Both the position numbers and the translations under genes were made by a program. Below, piece by piece: positions 2,797 through 64,000 of a stretch of DNA of 64,000 nt. The notes beneath the pieces were generated by a model that was not told where the DNA came from, searched no databases, and saw nothing but the letters and a program-made list of their open reading frames with translations. This DNA is from Tepidiforma thermophila (GTDB lineage Bacteria > Chloroflexota > Dehalococcoidia > Tepidiformales > Tepidiformaceae), in the NCBI RefSeq assembly GCF_002563855.1, contig NZ_PDJQ01000001.1, positions 1,116,001 through 1,180,000 on the forward strand, read 5' to 3'. The first letter of the stretch is position 1, and the number at the start of each line of letters is the position of its first letter.

Positions 2797-4794
2797 TTAG
2801 GCCAGGCGGAACTTTCCTGCCGCGGCCGCCAGCGCGTTCGCCAGCTCCCGCATCTGGCTCGCCGTTGCGGCCAGCTCCTGCGCCTGCGCCGAGAGCTCCT
2901 CCGTCGAAGCCGAAACCTCTTCCGCCGACGCGCTGGTCTCTTCGCCCGCCGCCGAAATCTGGAGGATCGCCTCCGTCACCTTCGAGGTGCCCGCGGCCAT
3001 CTCGCCCGCGCCCTGCGCCGAATCGCGCGCCAGCTCCGCAATCTGCTGCGCCGAGCTCACGATCCGCCCCGCGCCGGCTGCCAGCCCCTGCACGTCCCGC
3101 GCAATCTGCTGCATCCGCGCGGCCGATTGCTCCACCGTCCCAATAATCGCCTGGAGCGCCTGCCCGGCCTCGCCCGTAATCCGCTGGCCCTCCTGCACAT
3201 CCCGCACGCCGGCGGCCATCGCCTCGACGGCCTCGCGGGTGCCTTGCTGCACCTTCGCGATCAGGTCCGCGATCTCTTTGGTCGAGGCGCTCGACCGCTC
3301 TGCCAGCGACCGCACGTTCTCGGCCACCACCGCGAAGCCGCGCCCCTGCTCGCCGGCCCGCGCGGCCTCGATCGCCGCATTCAGCGCCAGCAGGTTCGTC
3401 TGGGATGCAATCTCGTCGATCGTTTTCACGATGTCGCCGATCTGCTGCCCGTACTCGCCGAGCTGGTCCACCGTCTTCGAGGCGCGCTCCACCGCCGCGG
3501 CAATCGACGCCATCGCTGCCACGGCCTGCCGGACCGCAGCCTGGCCCTGCTCGGCGGCCCGGCGCGACTCCTCCGCGGCCTCCGCAACCTCGCCCGAGGC
3601 CTTCGCAACGAGCTGGATCCGCTCGCCCATCTCCGCCGCTTCGTCGCGCGACTGCCCCGCGGCCGCCGCCGACTCCTGCGCACCCGCCGCCACCTGCTGC
3701 GAGCCGCTCGCCACCCGCTCCACCTGCCGCGCGCTCTCCTGCGAGAGGGAGGAGAGGGAGACCGTCGAGCGCGTCACCTCGTTGATCGCGGTCGCGATCT
3801 GCCCAGTGGCCGCCGCCATCTGGTCGCTCGCCTCACTGAGCTGGCCGGCCGCACCGAGGATCGCCTCCGCGTTCTGCTTCACCTGGCCCACCAGCCCGCG
3901 CAGGTTCCCGACCATCCGGTGCAGGGCGTTGCCGAGCGCGTCGTCGTGGCCGCGCGGCCGCACCTCGGCCCGCAGGTCGCCGTCCGCAACCTGCTCCGCC
4001 ACGCCCACCATCTCTTTCAGGTAGACGGTCATGTCACCGAATGCCTGTGCCGCCTCGCCGAGCTCATCCTTCGAGCGGACCGCGACTTCCACCTGGACAT
4101 TCCCCCGCGCGATCGACCGCGCCGCGTCCCGCACCTCGCGCGCCGTCCGCGCCATCGACCGCGCCAGCCAGATCGCCAGCGCCAGTCCGGCCGCAGCCGC
4201 CCCAACCGTCAGCCCGATGAGCAGCGTCCGTGCCGTTGCCGTTGCCGACTTGGCCGCGTCCAGTGATTCCGTCGCGTGCGCGACCTTTTCGTCAGCGACT
4301 AAGTCGAGCTCTTGGTTCATCTGGCTGACGAGATCCATCATTGTGGAGTTCTGTTGCCTCGCCTCGGCTACCTTTCCGGCAGCCAAGAGGTCGAGCACCT
4401 GCGTGCGCTTGGCGATTACCTCGTCGACCTTAGCCTCAACAGCCTTCCAGCGGGCTTCGTCTCCAGAATCGATAAATGTCTGGTGATAGTCGCTAGATGC
4501 CTTTTTTGCCGCTCTCATAGCCTCGCGAGAAGCGTCGATCAGCGTCTGGCGCTTCACCGGATCTTCCTCAAGAAACGCGCGGAGCATATCGCGGGCGCTT
4601 TTAATCATGTACTCGTTGGTGACGAGCGAGTACTTGACGCTCAGCAGATCCTCCCGGTACAGGTCCTCCGTCCGCTGTCCGGCAGCCTGGACCTGTACTA
4701 TGCCGATACCTGCCACGGCCGCATTGAGCGCCAGCACCACGCCGAACGCCAGCAGCAGCTTCACCTGTACCCGCAGGTTCGAGAACCAGGACAT
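2797..4794 (-). CDS. Methyl-accepting chemotaxis protein
   Basis: A 665-residue chemoreceptor. A membrane helix at about 12-35 and a second at about 190-211 bracket an extracytoplasmic four-helix-bundle sensor. A HAMP domain follows (about 212-263), with a second HAMP-like stretch around 262-315, then the long cytoplasmic coiled coil. The signalling hairpin near residues 458-495 contains [19 protein letters not shown] and [12 protein letters not shown], the segments that contact CheA and CheW. There is no C-terminal CheR-tethering peptide. The ATG has GGAGGG seven bases upstream. Bases 4300-4660, encoding residues about 45-165 of the sensor, are only about 50-60 % GC, unlike the rest of the gene. 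The ligand is unknown and no other chemotaxis gene lies nearby. Confidence 0.95.
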
Positions 4795-37022: not shown

Positions 37023-39440
37023 TTAGCCGCGCAGCGTGGCGCCGAACTCCCGGCCCAGCCGCGCCAGCAGCCCCTGGCCCACCTTGAGCGCCTCGTCGTC
37101 CGTCAGCGTCCGGTCATCGGCCCGCAGCCAGAGCCGCAGCGCCAGCGACTTCTTCCCCTCCGGCACCCCGGGCCCGCGGTACTCGTCGAACAGCTCCGCC
37201 CGCACCTGCACCCCCTGGCTCCGGTGCGACCGGACCAGCTCCAGCACCGCGCCCGCCGGCACCGCGGCATCGACCACCACCGCAAGGTCAAGCCTCACCG
37301 CCGGGTACCGCGAAAGCGCCTGGTAGGGCGGGCGCTCCGGCAGGTGCCGGACCAGGTCCTCCACCCACACCTCGAACAGGTACACCGCCTCGTCGATATC
37401 GAACGCCGCCGCTGTCTCCGGGTGCACCTGCCCCACGATGCCTGCCATCTCGCTCCCGACCCCGAACTTCGCCGTGTGCCCCGGCAGCAGCCCGTGCTCC
37501 TCCGCGGGGACGAACGTGCCCCGCACGCCGAGCGCACCGAGCATCGCTTCCACCGCACCCTTCGCATCGAAAAAGTCCAGCGCCTCGCCGCCGCCCACGC
37601 GCCAGCGCCCTTCCCGCGGCCCGCCCAGCACCGCGCACAGCACCGGCCGCTCAATCGGCAGGTCGCCCTCCACCGGCAGGTACTCGAAGCCAATCTCGAA
37701 CAGCCGCAGCGGGCCCTCCGCCTGCCGCCGGTTCGCCGCAAACGATTCCAGCACCGAGCTCCGCAGGCTCGTGCGGAGGTAGGCATGCTGCGCCGCCACC
37801 GGGTTCACCACCCCCAGCGGGTTCCGCCGCACCGTGTCCATGGGGTCGGTCACCAGCGCCAGCTTCTCCCGCGTCGTCAGGGTGTAATTGATGACCTCCT
37901 GGTATCCCAGCGCCACCGCAAGGTCCCGCAGCCGCTCCCGCAGCGCCATCACCGGGTTCTCCTCCGGCGGCGGCAGCGTCCCCCGCAGCATCGTCGTCGG
38001 CAGCCGGTCGTACCCGTAAATCCGGCCGACCTCCTCCACCAGGTCGTCCGGGATCTCCACGTCCGGCCGCCACGGCGGAACCTGCACGCTGTACTTCGCC
38101 GGCGGCACGTGGTGGACCAGGAACCCGAGGTCGCCCAGGATCCGCCGCACGTCCTCCACCGGCACCTCAATCCCCAGCACCTGCGCTATCCGCGCCGCCT
38201 CCAGCAGGATCGTCCGCGGCGGCTCCTTGCTCGGGTACACGTCCACGATTCCCCGCGCAATCCTGCCACCGCACACCGTCTCGAACAGGTGCAGCGCCCG
38301 CTGCTGGGCGTACATCGCCATCTCCGGCCCGAGCCCCTTCTCGAACCGCAGCGAGGCCTCCGTTCGGAGCTTCAGCAGCGTCGACGTCCGCCGGATCGAC
38401 CCCGCCCGGAAGTTCGCGACCTCCAGCAGCACCCGCGTCGTCCCCTCGTTCACCTCGCTGTTGCCCCCGCCCATCACCCCCGCCACGCCCACCGGGCCCT
38501 CGCCGTCGCAAATCAGCAGCATCTCACTGTCGAACTCCCGCTCCACCCCGTCGAGCGTCACCAGCCGCTCGCCCGGCCGTGCCCGCCGCGCCACAATCCG
38601 CTTCCCCCGCACGAGGTCGTAGTCGAACGCATGGAGCGGCTGCCCCGTCTCCAGCATGACATAATTCGTGATATCGACCACGTTGTTGATTGGCCGCATC
38701 CCGGCCTTCCGCAGCCGCTCCTGCATCCACGCCGGCGACGGCCCGATCTCGATACCCTCGATCACCGATGCCGTGAACCGCCGGCACAGGTCCGGCGCCT
38801 CAATCGCCACCGATACCAGCTCGCTGACGTCCGGGCCGCTCTCGCTGTACCGCCGGTCCGGCTCCCCCAGCACGCCGCCCGTCAGGGCCGCCACCTCCCG
38901 CGCGAACCCCACCATCCCCAGCAGGTCTGCCCGGTTCGCCCACGTCGAAACCTCCAGGATCACGTCGCCCAGCACATCCGCCAGCGGAACCCCGACCGGC
39001 GTCCCTTCCGGCAGCACGAGAATCCCCTCGTGCTCGTCGCTCAGCCCCAGCTCCTTCTCGCTCAGCACCATGCCCGCCGATTCCACCCCGCGGATCGGCC
39101 GCAGCTTGAGCGTCGTGGGCTCGCCGGTGTGCCCGTCAATCAGCCGCGCCCCTTCGCTCGCGAACGCCACCGTCTGGCCCACTGCAAGGTTTGGCGCCCC
39201 GCATACCACCTGCACCGTCTCCTGCCCCGTATCCACCGTCGCCAGCCGCAGCCGGTCCGCGTTCGGGTGCGGCTCCACCGCCACCACCTTCGCCACCCGC
39301 ACCAGCGCCGGGTCCCACGTCTCGCCGATGACCCTCCACCCCTCCACCTCCGCCACCGCGTCCGTAATCCGTCGCGCCAGCTCCTCGATCGGCAGGCGGA
39401 CGTCCACGTACTCCCGCAGCCAGCTCAGCGAAACCTTCAT
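37023..39440 (-). CDS. pheT: Phenylalanyl-tRNA synthetase beta subunit
   Basis: An 805-residue subunit of the (alpha-beta)2 enzyme. In order: N-terminal domain, tRNA-binding OB fold (about residues 40-150, RVAKVVAVEPHPNADRLRLA), B3/B4 editing domain (about 215-380), B5 domain (about 405-475), core and C-terminal ferredoxin-fold anticodon-binding domain (about 710-803, YPAVRLDLAVVVD to DDRTLTDDEAL). It charges tRNA-Phe and edits Tyr-tRNA-Phe. Starts 16 bases after pheS. Confidence 0.97.
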   Translation of the reverse strand: MKVSLSWLREYVDVRLPIEELARRITDAVAEVEGWRVIGETWDPALVRVAKVVAVEPHPNADRLRLATVDTGQETVQVVCGAPNLAVGQTVAFASEGARLIDGHTGEPTTLKLRPIRGVESAGMVLSEKELGLSDEHEGILVLPEGTPVGVPLADVLGDVILEVSTWANRADLLGMVGFAREVAALTGGVLGEPDRRYSESGPDVSELVSVAIEAPDLCRRFTASVIEGIEIGPSPAWMQERLRKAGMRPINNVVDITNYVMLETGQPLHAFDYDLVRGKRIVARRARPGERLVTLDGVEREFDSEMLLICDGEGPVGVAGVMGGGNSEVNEGTTRVLLEVANFRAGSIRRTSTLLKLRTEASLRFEKGLGPEMAMYAQQRALHLFETVCGGRIARGIVDVYPSKEPPRTILLEAARIAQVLGIEVPVEDVRRILGDLGFLVHHVPPAKYSVQVPPWRPDVEIPDDLVEEVGRIYGYDRLPTTMLRGTLPPPEENPVMALRERLRDLAVALGYQEVINYTLTTREKLALVTDPMDTVRRNPLGVVNPVAAQHAYLRTSLRSSVLESFAANRRQAEGPLRLFEIGFEYLPVEGDLPIERPVLCAVLGGPREGRWRVGGGEALDFFDAKGAVEAMLGALGVRGTFVPAEEHGLLPGHTAKFGVGSEMAGIVGQVHPETAAAFDIDEAVYLFEVWVEDLVRHLPERPPYQALSRYPAVRLDLAVVVDAAVPAGAVLELVRSHRSQGVQVRAELFDEYRGPGVPEGKKSLALRLWLRADDRTLTDDEALKVGQGLLARLGREFGATLRG

Positions 39441-39456
39441 CTCGTCCTCTCCTCGC

Positions 39457-40515
39457 TCAGAACTGGCTCAGGAACCGCAGGTCATTGCTGTAAAAGTGGC
39501 GGATATCCTCGATCCCCCAGCGCAGCATCGCCACCCGCTCCACGCCGATGCCGAACGCAAAGCCCGTCACCCTCGATGAGTCATAGCCGGCGTTGTCGAT
39601 GATCTCCGGGTGCACCATCCCTGCCCCGAGGATTTCGATCCACCCCGTCCCGTGGCAGGTGTGGCACTGCCGCCCGTCGCCCCGGCAGATGAAGCAGTCG
39701 ATCGCCATCTCCACGCCCGGCTCAACGAACGGGAAGTACGAGTGGTGGAAGATAATCCGCCGGTCCGAGCCGAACATCGCCCGCGCCCACTCATACAGCA
39801 CGCCCTTCAGGTCGCTCATCCGCACCCCTTCGTCCACCGCCAGCCCTTCGATCTGCGTCAGCATCCATTCGTGGGTCGCGTCGGTCGCCTCCTGCCGGTA
39901 GCACTTCCCCGGCACCACCACCCGCACCGGCGGCTGCGGCGTCCGCTCCATCACCCGGATCTGGTTCGGCGTCGTGTGCGTCCGCAGCAGCATCCGCCGC
40001 TTCCCATCGATGAGCGTATTCACCCAGATCGTGTCCCACATGTCCCGCGCCGGGTGGTCCTCCGGGATGCGCGCGGCATCGAAGTTGTACCGGTCCCACT
40101 CCACCTCCGGCCCCTCCGCCACCCGGAACCCCATCGCCTTGAACGCTTCGAGGCAGTCCCGCAGCGTCCGCGTAATTGGGTGGAGCCTCCCCAGCGGCTG
40201 CGGCCGTCCCGGCAGCGTCACATCCAGCGCCCCTTCCCGCGCCAGCCGTTCCAGCTCCGCACGCTTGAGCGCCGCCCGCCGCTCCTCCAGCGCCGCCTCC
40301 AGCCGCCCCTTCAGCGCGTTCACCGCCGCCCCGTAGGCCGCCCGCTCCTCCTGCGGCACCTCCCGGATGCCGCGCAGCAGCACTGTCACCCGTCCGTCCT
40401 GCCGCCCCAGCCACGCCGCCCGCCAGCGCTCCAGCGACGCCTCGTCTCCGGCCGCCGCAAGGCCCGCCAGCGCCTCCTCTTCGAGGCGCGAAAGATTCCC
40501 GGTCTCGGTCGTCAT
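39457..40515 (-). CDS. pheS: Phenylalanyl-tRNA synthetase alpha subunit
   Basis: A 352-residue class II aminoacyl-tRNA synthetase subunit. N-terminal coiled coil (to about residue 90) for tRNA binding; catalytic core with GRPQPLGRLHPITRTL, motif 2 around VVVPGKCYRQEATDATH, GDGRQCHTCHGTGWIEILG and motif 3 GFAFGIGVERVAML. Cysteines in CFICRGDGRQCHTCHGTGW give a zinc-ribbon-like insert. It starts with ATG, with a TATACT box nine bases upstream and GGAAG between, so a leaderless or nearly leaderless transcript is likely. Confidence 0.97.
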   Translation of the reverse strand: MTTETGNLSRLEEEALAGLAAAGDEASLERWRAAWLGRQDGRVTVLLRGIREVPQEERAAYGAAVNALKGRLEAALEERRAALKRAELERLAREGALDVTLPGRPQPLGRLHPITRTLRDCLEAFKAMGFRVAEGPEVEWDRYNFDAARIPEDHPARDMWDTIWVNTLIDGKRRMLLRTHTTPNQIRVMERTPQPPVRVVVPGKCYRQEATDATHEWMLTQIEGLAVDEGVRMSDLKGVLYEWARAMFGSDRRIIFHHSYFPFVEPGVEMAIDCFICRGDGRQCHTCHGTGWIEILGAGMVHPEIIDNAGYDSSRVTGFAFGIGVERVAMLRWGIEDIRHFYSNDLRFLSQF

Positions 40516-40524
40516 GGGCTTCCA

Positions 40525-40530
40525 AGTATA
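40525..40530 (-). promoter_or_regulatory. -10 box TATACT of the pheST operon
   Basis: On the minus strand TATACT ends nine bases before the pheS ATG. The same 67-base intergenic region holds the oppositely directed TACACT at 40571, so two near-leaderless promoters lie back to back. Confidence 0.6.
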
Positions 40531-40570
40531 GGCGCACCCGTCCTTACCGTCCGTGGCCCCTCACCCCGCC

Positions 40571-40576
40571 TACACT
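40571..40576 (+). promoter_or_regulatory. -10 box TACACT, leaderless start of the NHL/thioredoxin gene
   Basis: TACACT ends six bases before the GTG at 40583; the intervening CGCAGG is too short to act as a leader. Confidence 0.6.
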
Positions 40577-40582
40577 CGCAGG

Positions 40583-42631
40583 GTGCAACGGCCCGCCCGC
40601 CCAACCCGTATCATCACCATATGCCTCGCACTCGCCGCGGCGCTCGCCGCCATCATCGCCGTCGCCTGCTCACGCGGGTCCGAACGCTCTGCCCCCGCAG
40701 GATACGCTGACGTGTCCTCCCAGCCCGAGCGCAAATCCTGGGCCGGCACCGAACCGGCTCCCCCCTTCCCGCCCGGCCTCACCTGGTTCAACGTCCAGCG
40801 CCCACTCTCCCTCGAAGACCTCCGCGGCCGCATTGTCCTCCTCGACTTCTGGACCGCCGGCTGCATCAACTGCCAGCACATCGTCCCCGACCTCAAACGG
40901 CTCGAAGCCGAGTTCGGCGACCGCCTCGTCGTCATTGGCGTCCACTCCGGCAAGTACGCCGAGGAGCACGAGGACGACACCATCCGCGAAGCGATCCGCC
41001 GCCTCGGCATCGCCCACCCCGTCATCAACGACGCCGACTTCCGCGTCTGGACCACCTACGGCGCTCGCGCCTGGCCTACCCTTGTGCTCATCGACCCGGC
41101 CGGCAACCTCGTCGGCTACCACGAAGGCGAAGGCGTTTACCCGCTCTTCCAGCCCATCCTCGCCTCGCTCGTGGCCGAATTCGCCGGGCGCGGCCTCCTC
41201 CGCACCGGGCCGCTCCCGCTCGTCCCCGGTGCACCGCCGGCCACGGCCACCCTCGGCTACCCCTCCGCCGTCGCGGTCTCCGCCGCCGCCGACCGCCTCT
41301 ACATCGCCGACGCTGGCAACCATCGAATCATCGAAGCCGCCAGCTCCGGTGAGGTCCTCCGCGTCTTCGGCACCGGCCAGCCCGGCTTCGCCGACGGCGC
41401 CCCTGCCGAGGCTGCCTTCCGCGACCCCCAGGGGCTCGCCCTCTCCGCCGATGGCCGCACACTCTACGTGGCCGATACCCGCAACCACGCCGTCCGCGCC
41501 ATCGACCTCGCCTCCGGCGAAACCCGCACCATCGCCGGCACCGGCCGCCAGCTCACCCGCCTTCCCCGCGGCCCCGAGCCCGCCCGCGAGGTGGACCTTG
41601 CCTCCCCCTGGGGCCTCGTCCAGGTCGGAAGCCGGCTCTTCATCACCATGGCCGGTGTCCACCAGGTCTGGGTGCTCGACCTCGCCGCCGGCACCATCGA
41701 CGTCTTCGCCGGCACCTCCCGCGAAGGCCTCGACGACGGCCCCCGCCGGGAGATGGCCACCCTCGCACAGCCCTCCGGTATCACCGCCGATAGCGCCCGG
41801 CTGTACTGGGTCGACCCCGAAGCCTCTGCCGTCCGTACCGTCCCCATCGATGGCGACGGCGAGGTCCGCACCCTCGTCGGGACCGGCCTTTTCGACTACG
41901 GCGACCGCGACGGCACCGGCCGCCAGGGCCAGCTCCAGCACCCCCAGGGCATCGCCTTTGCCGACGGCGTCCTCTACATCGCCGACACCTACAACCACCG
42001 CATCCGCGTGCTCGACCCGGCCACCCGCCAGCTCGGCACCGCCGCCGGCTCCGACCGCGGCTGGTCCGACGGCGCCGCCGGCCAGGCCCGCTTCGCCGAG
42101 CCCGCCGGCCTCGCCTGGGATGGCCGCCTCCTCTACATCGCCGACTCAGCCAACCACCTCGTCCGCACCTTCGACCCGGCGGCCGGCACCGTCAGCACCC
42201 TCGCCCTCTCGAACATCGAACTCCTCCGCCCGCCGGCCGCCGGCCCCCTCGAAACGCGCGACCTCCCGGCCCAAACCGTCGCGCCCGGCGCCGCCAACCT
42301 GCGCATCGAAGTCGCCGCCCCGCCCGGCTACCACCTCAACGCCCTCGCTCCATCCGCCCTCGAGCTCGCCTCCAGTAACCCTGCCGTCATCGAGCCCGGC
42401 GAACACCGGCTCGAATGGCGCACCGACGACCCGTCCGTCAGCTTCCCCGTCCCGGTCATTCTCGCTCCCGGCAGCGCGGTCCTCACGGCTACCGTCTCCG
42501 CCTACTACTGCCGCGAGGGCCAGGAGGCGCTCTGTTTCGTCGCCCGGGTGGCCTACCGCGTCCCCATCGAGGTCGTCCCCGGCGCGCCCGTCGCCGAACC
42601 CCGCCTCCAGCTCGGCCTGCCCGAGCGCTGA
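40583..42631 (+). CDS. Thioredoxin-like NHL-repeat lipoprotein (NHLRC2-like)
   Basis: A 682-residue exported protein. A signal peptide ends in AVAC (lipobox, about residue 29). A TlpA/AhpC-like thioredoxin domain follows at about 45-210, with C94-I-N-C97 inside LDFWTAGCINC, as in NHLRC2. A six-bladed NHL beta-propeller covers about 220-560 (repeated LYIADAGNHRI, LYVADTRNHAV, LYIADTYNHRI). The last 110 residues are a beta-rich domain with a cysteine pair in YYCREGQEALC, like DsbD-type domains. It should act outside the membrane as a thiol-disulfide protein; its partner is unknown. GTG start. Confidence 0.88.
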   Translation: MQRPARPTRIITICLALAAALAAIIAVACSRGSERSAPAGYADVSSQPERKSWAGTEPAPPFPPGLTWFNVQRPLSLEDLRGRIVLLDFWTAGCINCQHIVPDLKRLEAEFGDRLVVIGVHSGKYAEEHEDDTIREAIRRLGIAHPVINDADFRVWTTYGARAWPTLVLIDPAGNLVGYHEGEGVYPLFQPILASLVAEFAGRGLLRTGPLPLVPGAPPATATLGYPSAVAVSAAADRLYIADAGNHRIIEAASSGEVLRVFGTGQPGFADGAPAEAAFRDPQGLALSADGRTLYVADTRNHAVRAIDLASGETRTIAGTGRQLTRLPRGPEPAREVDLASPWGLVQVGSRLFITMAGVHQVWVLDLAAGTIDVFAGTSREGLDDGPRREMATLAQPSGITADSARLYWVDPEASAVRTVPIDGDGEVRTLVGTGLFDYGDRDGTGRQGQLQHPQGIAFADGVLYIADTYNHRIRVLDPATRQLGTAAGSDRGWSDGAAGQARFAEPAGLAWDGRLLYIADSANHLVRTFDPAAGTVSTLALSNIELLRPPAAGPLETRDLPAQTVAPGAANLRIEVAAPPGYHLNALAPSALELASSNPAVIEPGEHRLEWRTDDPSVSFPVPVILAPGSAVLTATVSAYYCREGQEALCFVARVAYRVPIEVVPGAPVAEPRLQLGLPER

Positions 42632-61798: not shown

Positions 61799-64000
61799 CT
61801 ACTCCTCGCCGATCCGCTTCGTTGTCAGCACCGGCTTCTGCTCGGTCAGCACGCCCTTCTGATTCGGCGCCAGCCCAAACCGGTCCAGCGGCAGGTACGT
61901 CAGCGTCGCCTTCCCGATGATCAGGTCCTTCGAGACCAGCCCAACCTGCGCGCTCCGGCTGTCCAGGCTGTTGTTCCGGTTGTCCCCCATGACGAAGTAC
62001 TCGTCCGGCGGGATCAGGATCTTCGGCAGCGTGTCGTTCCACGGCGTCGTGATGTACGGCTCCTCGAGCAGCCGGTCGTTGATATACACCTTCCCGTTCA
62101 CGATCTCGATCGTCTCGCCCGGCAGACCGATGACCCGCTTGATCAGGTCCGTGCTCGGGTCGCGCGGGTCGCGCAGCACGATGATGTCCCCCCGCTGCGG
62201 CCCGTGAAACACGTAGCGCGTCGGGTCGTCCCCCGGGTCGATAAACGGCAGGAAGTTCGACAGCTTCTCAAGGTCGACCTCCGAGTACACCAGCTTGTTC
62301 ACGATCAGGAACTCGCCGTTCTCCAGCGTCGGATACATCGAGTTCCCGTCGACCTTGAAGTTGCCGAAGCTCGCCCGTACCGAGAGGAACACGAGCGCGG
62401 CCAGCATCACGGTCTCGACCACCTCCCGGATCCACGCCTTGAGCTTCCCGTCGCTCCCGGCTTGCCCTGGCCGCTCGTCCTCCCCGGTCTCGGCCTCCGC
62501 CAGCCACGGCGGCGTCCCTGCGACCGGCTCGACCGCGAACCCGAGCGGGTTCGCCCGGGCCTCCAGCTCCTGCCGGACCTCCTCCTCGGGGGCCCACCCG
62601 TCGTCGGCCGGCAGGCTCCGCTGCGGCGCCCACGCGCCCAGGCGGATGAACGGCCGCTCCTGCGGCTCGTCCCCGGCCTCCGCCACGATCTCCGTCGCGT
62701 TCTCGCCGAAGAGCGCCGAGAGCGCTGCCGCCGTCTCGGCTTCGAGGGCCGCGGCCTCCGCCGCATCCTCCTCCGGGTCCGGGGTCGAAGCGTGCGCCTC
62801 GAACGCCTTCAGGATCACGTCGCCCTCGTCCTCGGTCGACCGGAACGCGTCGTTCTCGTCTTCCGCCGGTGACGGCTGCGGCCACGCCGGCTCTTCGAGC
62901 GTTGCACCAAGCTGCGCTTCGAGGCTCGCGGCCAGGTCGAGGTCATCCTCCTTGCCGGTCGCGGCCGCCTCGGCGGTCTCCGCGATATCGCCCCACATAT
63001 CCTCGTTGCCGCCACCCCGGTCCTCGCCCGGCGAGGCCGCTGGCTGCGCGTGCGTCCATGCTGCGGGTGGTTCGAACACCGCCGGGCGCTCCCACCACGG
63101 CCGCTCCGCCGCCGCCGGCGCCTCCGGCTGGCTCTCGACCGCCGGCTCCGCGCCGGCGACGGCCTCCTGCGCCGTCTCCTCCGCCTCCGGCGTCTCCCAC
63201 CACGGCCGCTCCGCCGCCGGCGCCTCCGGCTCGTTCGCGACGGCCGGCTCCGAGCTTGCGACCGCCTCCTCGACGCTCTCCTCCGCCTCCGGCGTCTCCC
63301 ACCACGGCCGCTCCGCCGCCGGCGCCTCCGGCTGGCCCTCGACCGCCGGCTCCGCGCTGGCAACGGCCTCCTCGGTCGTCTCCTCCGCCTCCGGCGCCTC
63401 CCACCACGGCCGCTCCGCCGCCTGCGTCACCTCCGGCTGGCTCTCGACTGCCGGCTCCGCGCTGGCGACCGCCTCCTCAACAATCTCCTCGGCCTCGGGT
63501 GCCTCCCACCACGGCCGCTCCGCCGCTCGCGTCACCCCCGGCTGGCTCTCGGCCGCCGGCTCCGCGCTGGCAACGGCCTCCTCGAGAATCTCCTCAGCCT
63601 CCGGCGTCTCCCACCACGGCCGCTCCGCCGCAGCCGGCGCCCCGGCTGGCTCTCGACCGCCGGCTCCGAGCTTGCGACCGCCTCCTCGACGCTCTCCTCC
63701 GCCTCGGGCGCCTCCCACCACGGCCGCTCCGCCGCAGCCGCCGCCCCCGGCTGGCTCTCGACCGCCGGCTCCGCGCTGGCGACCGCCTCCTCGACGCTCT
63801 CCTCGGCCTCCGGCGTCTCCCACCACGGCCGCTCCGCCGCCGCCGGCGCCTCCGGCTGGCTCTCGACCGCCGGTTCCGCGCTGGCGACCGCCTCCTCGAC
63901 GCTCTCCTCCGCCTCCGGCGTCTCCCACCACGGCCGCTCCGCCGCGGGCGTCACCTCCGGCTGGCTCTCGACCGCCGGCTCCGGGCTGGCAACGGCCTCC
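61799..64000 (-). CDS. lepB: Type I signal peptidase with long repetitive N-terminal region (frameshifted, 5' end outside window)
   Basis: The C-terminal 215 residues are signal peptidase I (S26A): a membrane helix (VMLAALVFLSVRASF), catalytic Ser in GNSMYPTL (codon 62339-62341), general-base Lys in LIKRVIGLPGE (codon 62138-62140), and GDNRNNSLDSR. It cuts signal peptides outside the membrane. Upstream lie about 200 acidic residues and then about nine copies of a 34-35-residue repeat (AERPWWETPEAEE core) reaching the window edge. Repeat spacing is 105 or 102 bases except once, 104, between 63611 and 63715; the frame changes there, at about 63640 (GCGCCCCGG where sisters have GCGCCTCCGG). So the extension is either out of frame with the peptidase or the base is an error. 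Confidence 0.85.
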   Translation of the reverse strand, partial: GGRCQPGAGGREPAGGDARGGAAVVGDAGGGGERRGGGRQRGTGGREPAGGAGGGGAAVVGDAGGRGERRGGGRQRGAGGREPAGGGGCGGAAVVGGARGGGERRGGGRKLGAGGREPAGAPAAAERPWWETPEAEEILEEAVASAEPAAESQPGVTRAAERPWWEAPEAEEIVEEAVASAEPAVESQPEVTQAAERPWWEAPEAEETTEEAVASAEPAVEGQPEAPAAERPWWETPEAEESVEEAVASSEPAVANEPEAPAAERPWWETPEAEETAQEAVAGAEPAVESQPEAPAAAERPWWERPAVFEPPAAWTHAQPAASPGEDRGGGNEDMWGDIAETAEAAATGKEDDLDLAASLEAQLGATLEEPAWPQPSPAEDENDAFRSTEDEGDVILKAFEAHASTPDPEEDAAEAAALEAETAAALSALFGENATEIVAEAGDEPQERPFIRLGAWAPQRSLPADDGWAPEEEVRQELEARANPLGFAVEPVAGTPPWLAEAETGEDERPGQAGSDGKLKAWIREVVETVMLAALVFLSVRASFGNFKVDGNSMYPTLENGEFLIVNKLVYSEVDLEKLSNFLPFIDPGDDPTRYVFHGPQRGDIIVLRDPRDPSTDLIKRVIGLPGETIEIVNGKVYINDRLLEEPYITTPWNDTLPKILIPPDEYFVMGDNRNNSLDSRSAQVGLVSKDLIIGKATLTYLPLDRFGLAPNQKGVLTEQKPVLTTKRIGEE
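63092..64000 (-). repeat. Tandem 102-105-base coding repeats in the signal peptidase gene
   Basis: The CCACCACGG element recurs at 63092, 63197, 63299, 63401, 63506, 63611, 63715, 63820 and 63925, giving periods of 105, 102, 102, 105, 105, 104, 105 and 105 bases. The encoded unit is Ala-Glu-Arg-Pro-Trp-Trp-Glu followed by Pro-Glu-Ala-Glu-Glu and an Ala/Glu/Val tail ending in Glu-Ser-Gln-Pro. Near identity between neighbouring units indicates recent expansion or gene conversion. Confidence 0.93.

Follow-up and report, generated by a model that had tools for sequence, protein, structure and literature searches.

The split signal peptidase gene and its repeat array

The end of the window (the whole 64,000-nucleotide stretch of Tepidiforma thermophila DNA that was analyzed) carries, on the minus strand, a signal peptidase gene that is divided between two reading frames. 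The upstream frame encodes an N-terminal extension of 956 aa, counted from 66402 beyond the window; its 3′ part lies at 63532..64000, and it ends at a TGA codon (63532-63534) after 36 residues that are out of frame beyond the lesion described below. The peptidase frame, at 61799..63639 with its TAG stop codon at 61799, encodes the later units of a tandem repeat, an acidic linker, a single transmembrane segment predicted from the sequence (LKAWIREVVETVMLAALVFLSVRASF, 62366..62443), and the peptidase S26/signal peptidase I domain (61895..62425). This domain contains the Ser and Lys motifs and scored above the curated cut-offs, with 156.7 bits for PF10502 (cut-off 22.9) and 145.4 bits for TIGR02227 (cut-off 47). 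By its S26 domain the gene product is a signal peptidase I, with a predicted cleavage activity. It has the Ser/Lys signature motifs, the one transmembrane segment and the full-length domain match in common with type I signal peptidases of the LepB/SipS kind (PF10502, TIGR02227), but differs from them in that the peptidase follows an acidic, repeat-bearing stretch of approximately 1,300 aa. The extension had no Pfam or NCBIfam match. Another S26 (signal peptidase I) gene, which is intact, is found at genome positions 957117-957734 in an open frame of 366 aa.

The two frames meet within a tandem array (63085..64000, extending past the window to 64251; minus strand) that encodes (A)ERPWWE[AT]PEAEE...EPAVESQPE...AA. 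The array is 1.2 kb long, has a G+C content of 79%, and consists of 12 units of 102 or 105 bases, nine of which are within the window. The anchors of these nine units (GAGCGGCCGTGGTGGGAG, minus strand) are at 63939, 63834, 63729, 63625, 63520, 63415, 63313, 63211 and 63106, which gives intervals of 105, 105, 104, 105, 105, 102, 102 and 105 bases. The three further units upstream, with anchors at 64044 (across the window end), 64149 and 64251, are still in the upstream frame. The anchor positions confirm the initial annotation, in which all eight measurable intervals were multiples of three except a single interval of 104 bases, here the one between anchors 63729 and 63625. The same annotation had placed a one-base offset in a C-run between the upstream frame of the repeats and the frame of the later repeats and the peptidase, and this too was reproduced.

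The missing base maps to a CCCC run in repeat unit 6 (63640..63643, minus strand; GGGG in the transcript; GGCGCCCCGGC), toward the low end of the interval 63611-63715 given in the initial annotation. Unit 6 reads CAGCCGGGGCGCC where the neighboring units have CCGGGGG or CCGGAGG, so that the run is one base shorter than the CCCCC (GGGGG in the transcript) of two neighboring units. Only three runs of at least five bases are expected in the array, and the lesion is located at one of them. Both sides are coding, and the array units differ mostly at third codon positions, with a different phase on each side of the lesion; the lesion is not a chance reading. The lesion is also spanned by 31-mers with a unique placement, which means that short reads of good quality could have repaired it.

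The reading frame in related genomes

This genome and its closest relatives belong to the genus Tepidiforma. In the sister species (G004), which is 92% identical over the C-terminal 399 aa and about 91-92% identical in DNA, both halves of the gene are in one frame of 1541 aa, counted from its ATG. A second congener (G002) has a single open frame of 1318 aa, and in representatives of further family genera (G008, G026, G022, G006, G020, G021, G018 and G011) a single open frame of 1052-1723 aa ends with the peptidase. The continuous extension-peptidase frame is thus present in G004, G002 and most of the other family genera examined. G004, G002 and these representatives of other genera all carry WYFD[LI]PxGAW[ED]R, or a near variant of it, at the N-terminus. 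Several motifs of the extension are conserved in the relatives (L055, L058, L060-L069), namely WYFDLPxGAWERQ, a K-rich RGLFG(x)GRKK, VVLRAFEAHA and WAPQR.

The start of the gene is marked by a conserved element, TG[AG]TANNCTG-ATGNNNATG, at 66396-66412 on the minus strand beyond the window. It precedes the start in ten relatives outside this species, or in eleven genomes counting this one (L004, L055-L069). The TGRTANNCTG element resembles an extended -10 box approximately 7 bases before the second ATG, which suggests a leaderless transcript. Within the 8 kb surrounding the gene its only occurrence is at 66412; none was found near the peptidase. A conserved start element that is unique in 8 kb indicates that the gene is built for reading from its far N-terminus.

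In the comparison of this genome with G004, the extension ahead of the array had a dN/dS of 0.40 (0.31 in its initial part), the linker that follows the array 0.32, and the transmembrane segment together with the peptidase 0.08. Both halves are under purifying selection, each in its own frame, and no second lesion was found in either half in comparison with G004. The frame was therefore intact until very recently, or is still intact, and any real break is very recent. A second assembly of the same species was sought and none was found. The published Tepidiforma isolates are T. thermophila G233 (PacBio, HGAP), T. flava YIM 72310 (Nanopore/Flye with HiSeq correction) and T. bonchosmolovskayae, with genomes of 2.74-2.77 Mbp (PMC10284905); T. 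thermophila and T. bonchosmolovskayae are approximately 92% identical (PMC12740240), a pair that matches the present genome and G004.

Two other Tepidiforma assemblies, G003 and G001, are damaged at or beside the array, and both have private indels elsewhere. In G003 the array contains two indels, +1 and -1, and 115 kb of the assembly hold about eight further private breaks. In G001 (L056, minus strand position 3414) a one-N join with approximately 62 duplicated bases lies just upstream of the array, and genes are shattered elsewhere too. A single N with a duplicated flank is a typical join of overlapping contig ends. A biological hotspot common to three of the five congeneric assemblies was considered, and was rejected in view of the N join and shattered genes of G001 and the private breaks of G003. 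Our data indicate that the array is hard to assemble; they do not demonstrate that it is variable.

One-base losses elsewhere in the assembly

The region from 926001 to 1613000 of the genome (687 kb) was compared with the syntenic region of G004 in both directions, with 453 G004 genes matched well, and breaks were scored as interruptions of the protein frame with pS/pN on both sides. Counting indels by megablast was abandoned as too noisy, since its low gap cost produces paired gaps, and most of the apparent breaks in the survey were discarded as intergenic or antisense. Four more private lesions of the same kind were identified in genes that are intact in relatives. The gene for an acyl-CoA carboxylase beta subunit has C4 in place of C5 at genome position 1204899; runs of C6 are reduced to C5 in the genes for a DUF2851 protein (932641) and for a membrane protein that resembles polysaccharide flippases (1078135); and at 1557776 a C-run has lost one base in a lipoyl-domain acyltransferase-like gene. 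All four genes are single frames in G004, G002 and G003. Two of them bear extra damage in the poor assembly G001.

Together with the lesion in lepB, this results in five losses, each of which is one base missing from a C-run of the plus strand. The reverse comparison of the syntenic region revealed no private breaks in G004, and the survey of approximately 450 genes turned up no private lesion of a different kind in this genome. Where the flanks are identical, the five-base G/C runs of this genome agree with those of G004 in 207 of 207 cases. An intergenic run at genome position 1324311 is C5 in this genome and C6 in G004, with flanks identical over approximately 150 bases, which is compatible with under-calling. 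Another gene in the window (38665-42628, plus strand) is in two frames in both this genome and G004, with the switch near 40554-40706, and is one frame of 1320 aa in G001, G002 and G003; because the two-frame state is common to the sister pair, this is probably a real difference.

Origin and consequences of the missing base

The missing base is most probably a consensus error of this assembly with a technical cause, as judged from its match with other losses of a single C from C-runs elsewhere in the assembly, of which there are at least four. A true run of five C would have been called as four inside a G+C-rich tandem array in which reads are difficult to polish. On this reading, the real gene would have an uninterrupted frame of approximately 1,570 codons, with a leaderless-type promoter immediately at the gene start, and its product would be a signal peptidase I with a single transmembrane segment after a very long acidic extension that holds the repeat array and is probably disordered and cytoplasmic. 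The uniform spectrum of one-C losses is what is expected of residual homopolymer under-calling, as genuine decay would add nonsense codons and varied indels. The Polypolish study (PMC8812927) states that errors in homopolymer length are the most frequent ones left in long-read assemblies and often persist in repeats, and long-read assembly errors that fragment genes have been reported (PMC12007338). The lesion resembles homopolymer errors that survive polishing in being a private single-base loss from a C-run, in its repetitive G+C-rich tract and in its sister lesions; it differs in the low overall error rate here. An assembly error in a repetitive tract had been one of the readings offered by the initial annotation, and it is well supported by the at least four other private C-run losses, the family-wide continuous frame and the two damaged congener assemblies. 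Some findings point the other way. The uniquely placed 31-mers across the lesion would have allowed a correction by short reads, the chance that one error would be placed in the 1.2-kb array is below 1%, the assembly is otherwise accurate at the 207 five-base G/C runs, and all five losses are of C, never of G, on the plus strand, which is odd, although the numbers are small.

It is unlikely that the base was lost through a genuine, very recent deletion by slippage in the run of five, perhaps in culture, which would truncate the extension and leave the peptidase to weak internal initiation. Such a deletion is possible because the second intact signal peptidase I gene could make it tolerable, and slippage occurs naturally in runs of five; were this a mutator strain, the remaining four lesions could be genuine as well. 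Against this, all five losses are of one type with no other private kind of lesion in the approximately 450 genes, they hit a carboxylase and an acyltransferase-like gene that are both expected to matter, and the five-base G/C runs otherwise match those of the sister species. The probability is far lower still for phase variation, in which the link between extension and peptidase would be toggled by slippage at the C-run or by recombination within the array. The array is repetitive, and recombinational loss of the affected unit would restore the frame; the locus also resembles phase-variable genes with simple sequence repeats, as generally known, in that the frame is interrupted beside a homopolymer within a repeat array. 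However, known phase-variable tracts are far longer than a C4/C5 run, the gain or loss of a unit of 102 or 105 bases keeps the frame, and there is no conserved broken state, as G004 and G002 are open and G003 and G001 are damaged at different sites, by what look like technical faults. These differences make phase variation unlikely. It is equally improbable that the base is missing in only some of the cells, such that gain or loss of the four-C unit through recombination of the array would switch the connection of a disordered cytoplasmic extension of approximately 1,300 residues to the peptidase and yield variable forms of the enzyme.

We likewise consider it most doubtful that the gene deliberately produces two proteins, either by programmed -1 frameshifting or from an internal start. 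The GGGG run could permit a weak single-tRNA slip, but there is no X_XXY_YYZ slippery heptamer at the lesion, and the downstream fold is ordinary (z -0.64) and similar to that of the neighboring control units. As for an internal start, the ATG at 62998 corresponds to a methionine conserved within the genus, and in this genome a weak GAGG precedes it, but the GAGG is not conserved at this ATG; neither a second promoter-like element of the conserved type nor a convincing ribosome-binding site was found for it. The unbroken frame in the relatives also argues against two proteins. The suggestion in the initial annotation that the peptidase is expressed phase-variably or from an internal start is thus unsupported, with a run of C4 where C5 is expected, in-frame units, and no heptamer, unusual downstream fold, promoter-like element or convincing ribosome-binding site.

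Of more interest than the missing base, and a more lasting piece of biology, is the giant signal peptidase itself. Most of the examined genera of the Tepidiforma family encode a signal peptidase I of this giant form, whose acidic, probably disordered extension measures approximately 870-1,540 residues; no literature on a giant signal peptidase I with such an extension was found. The split would lead annotation to report a truncated, seemingly unrelated protein and a shorter signal peptidase, and it hides a giant enzyme with a conserved N-terminus in Tepidiforma and its relatives. If the lesion were real, the extension would be dispensable. If instead the five breaks are consensus errors, five false breaks in a quarter of the genome correspond to roughly twenty in all, provided that the rate holds. 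The pattern warns of other falsely broken genes in this assembly, and two of the five found here look like core metabolic genes.
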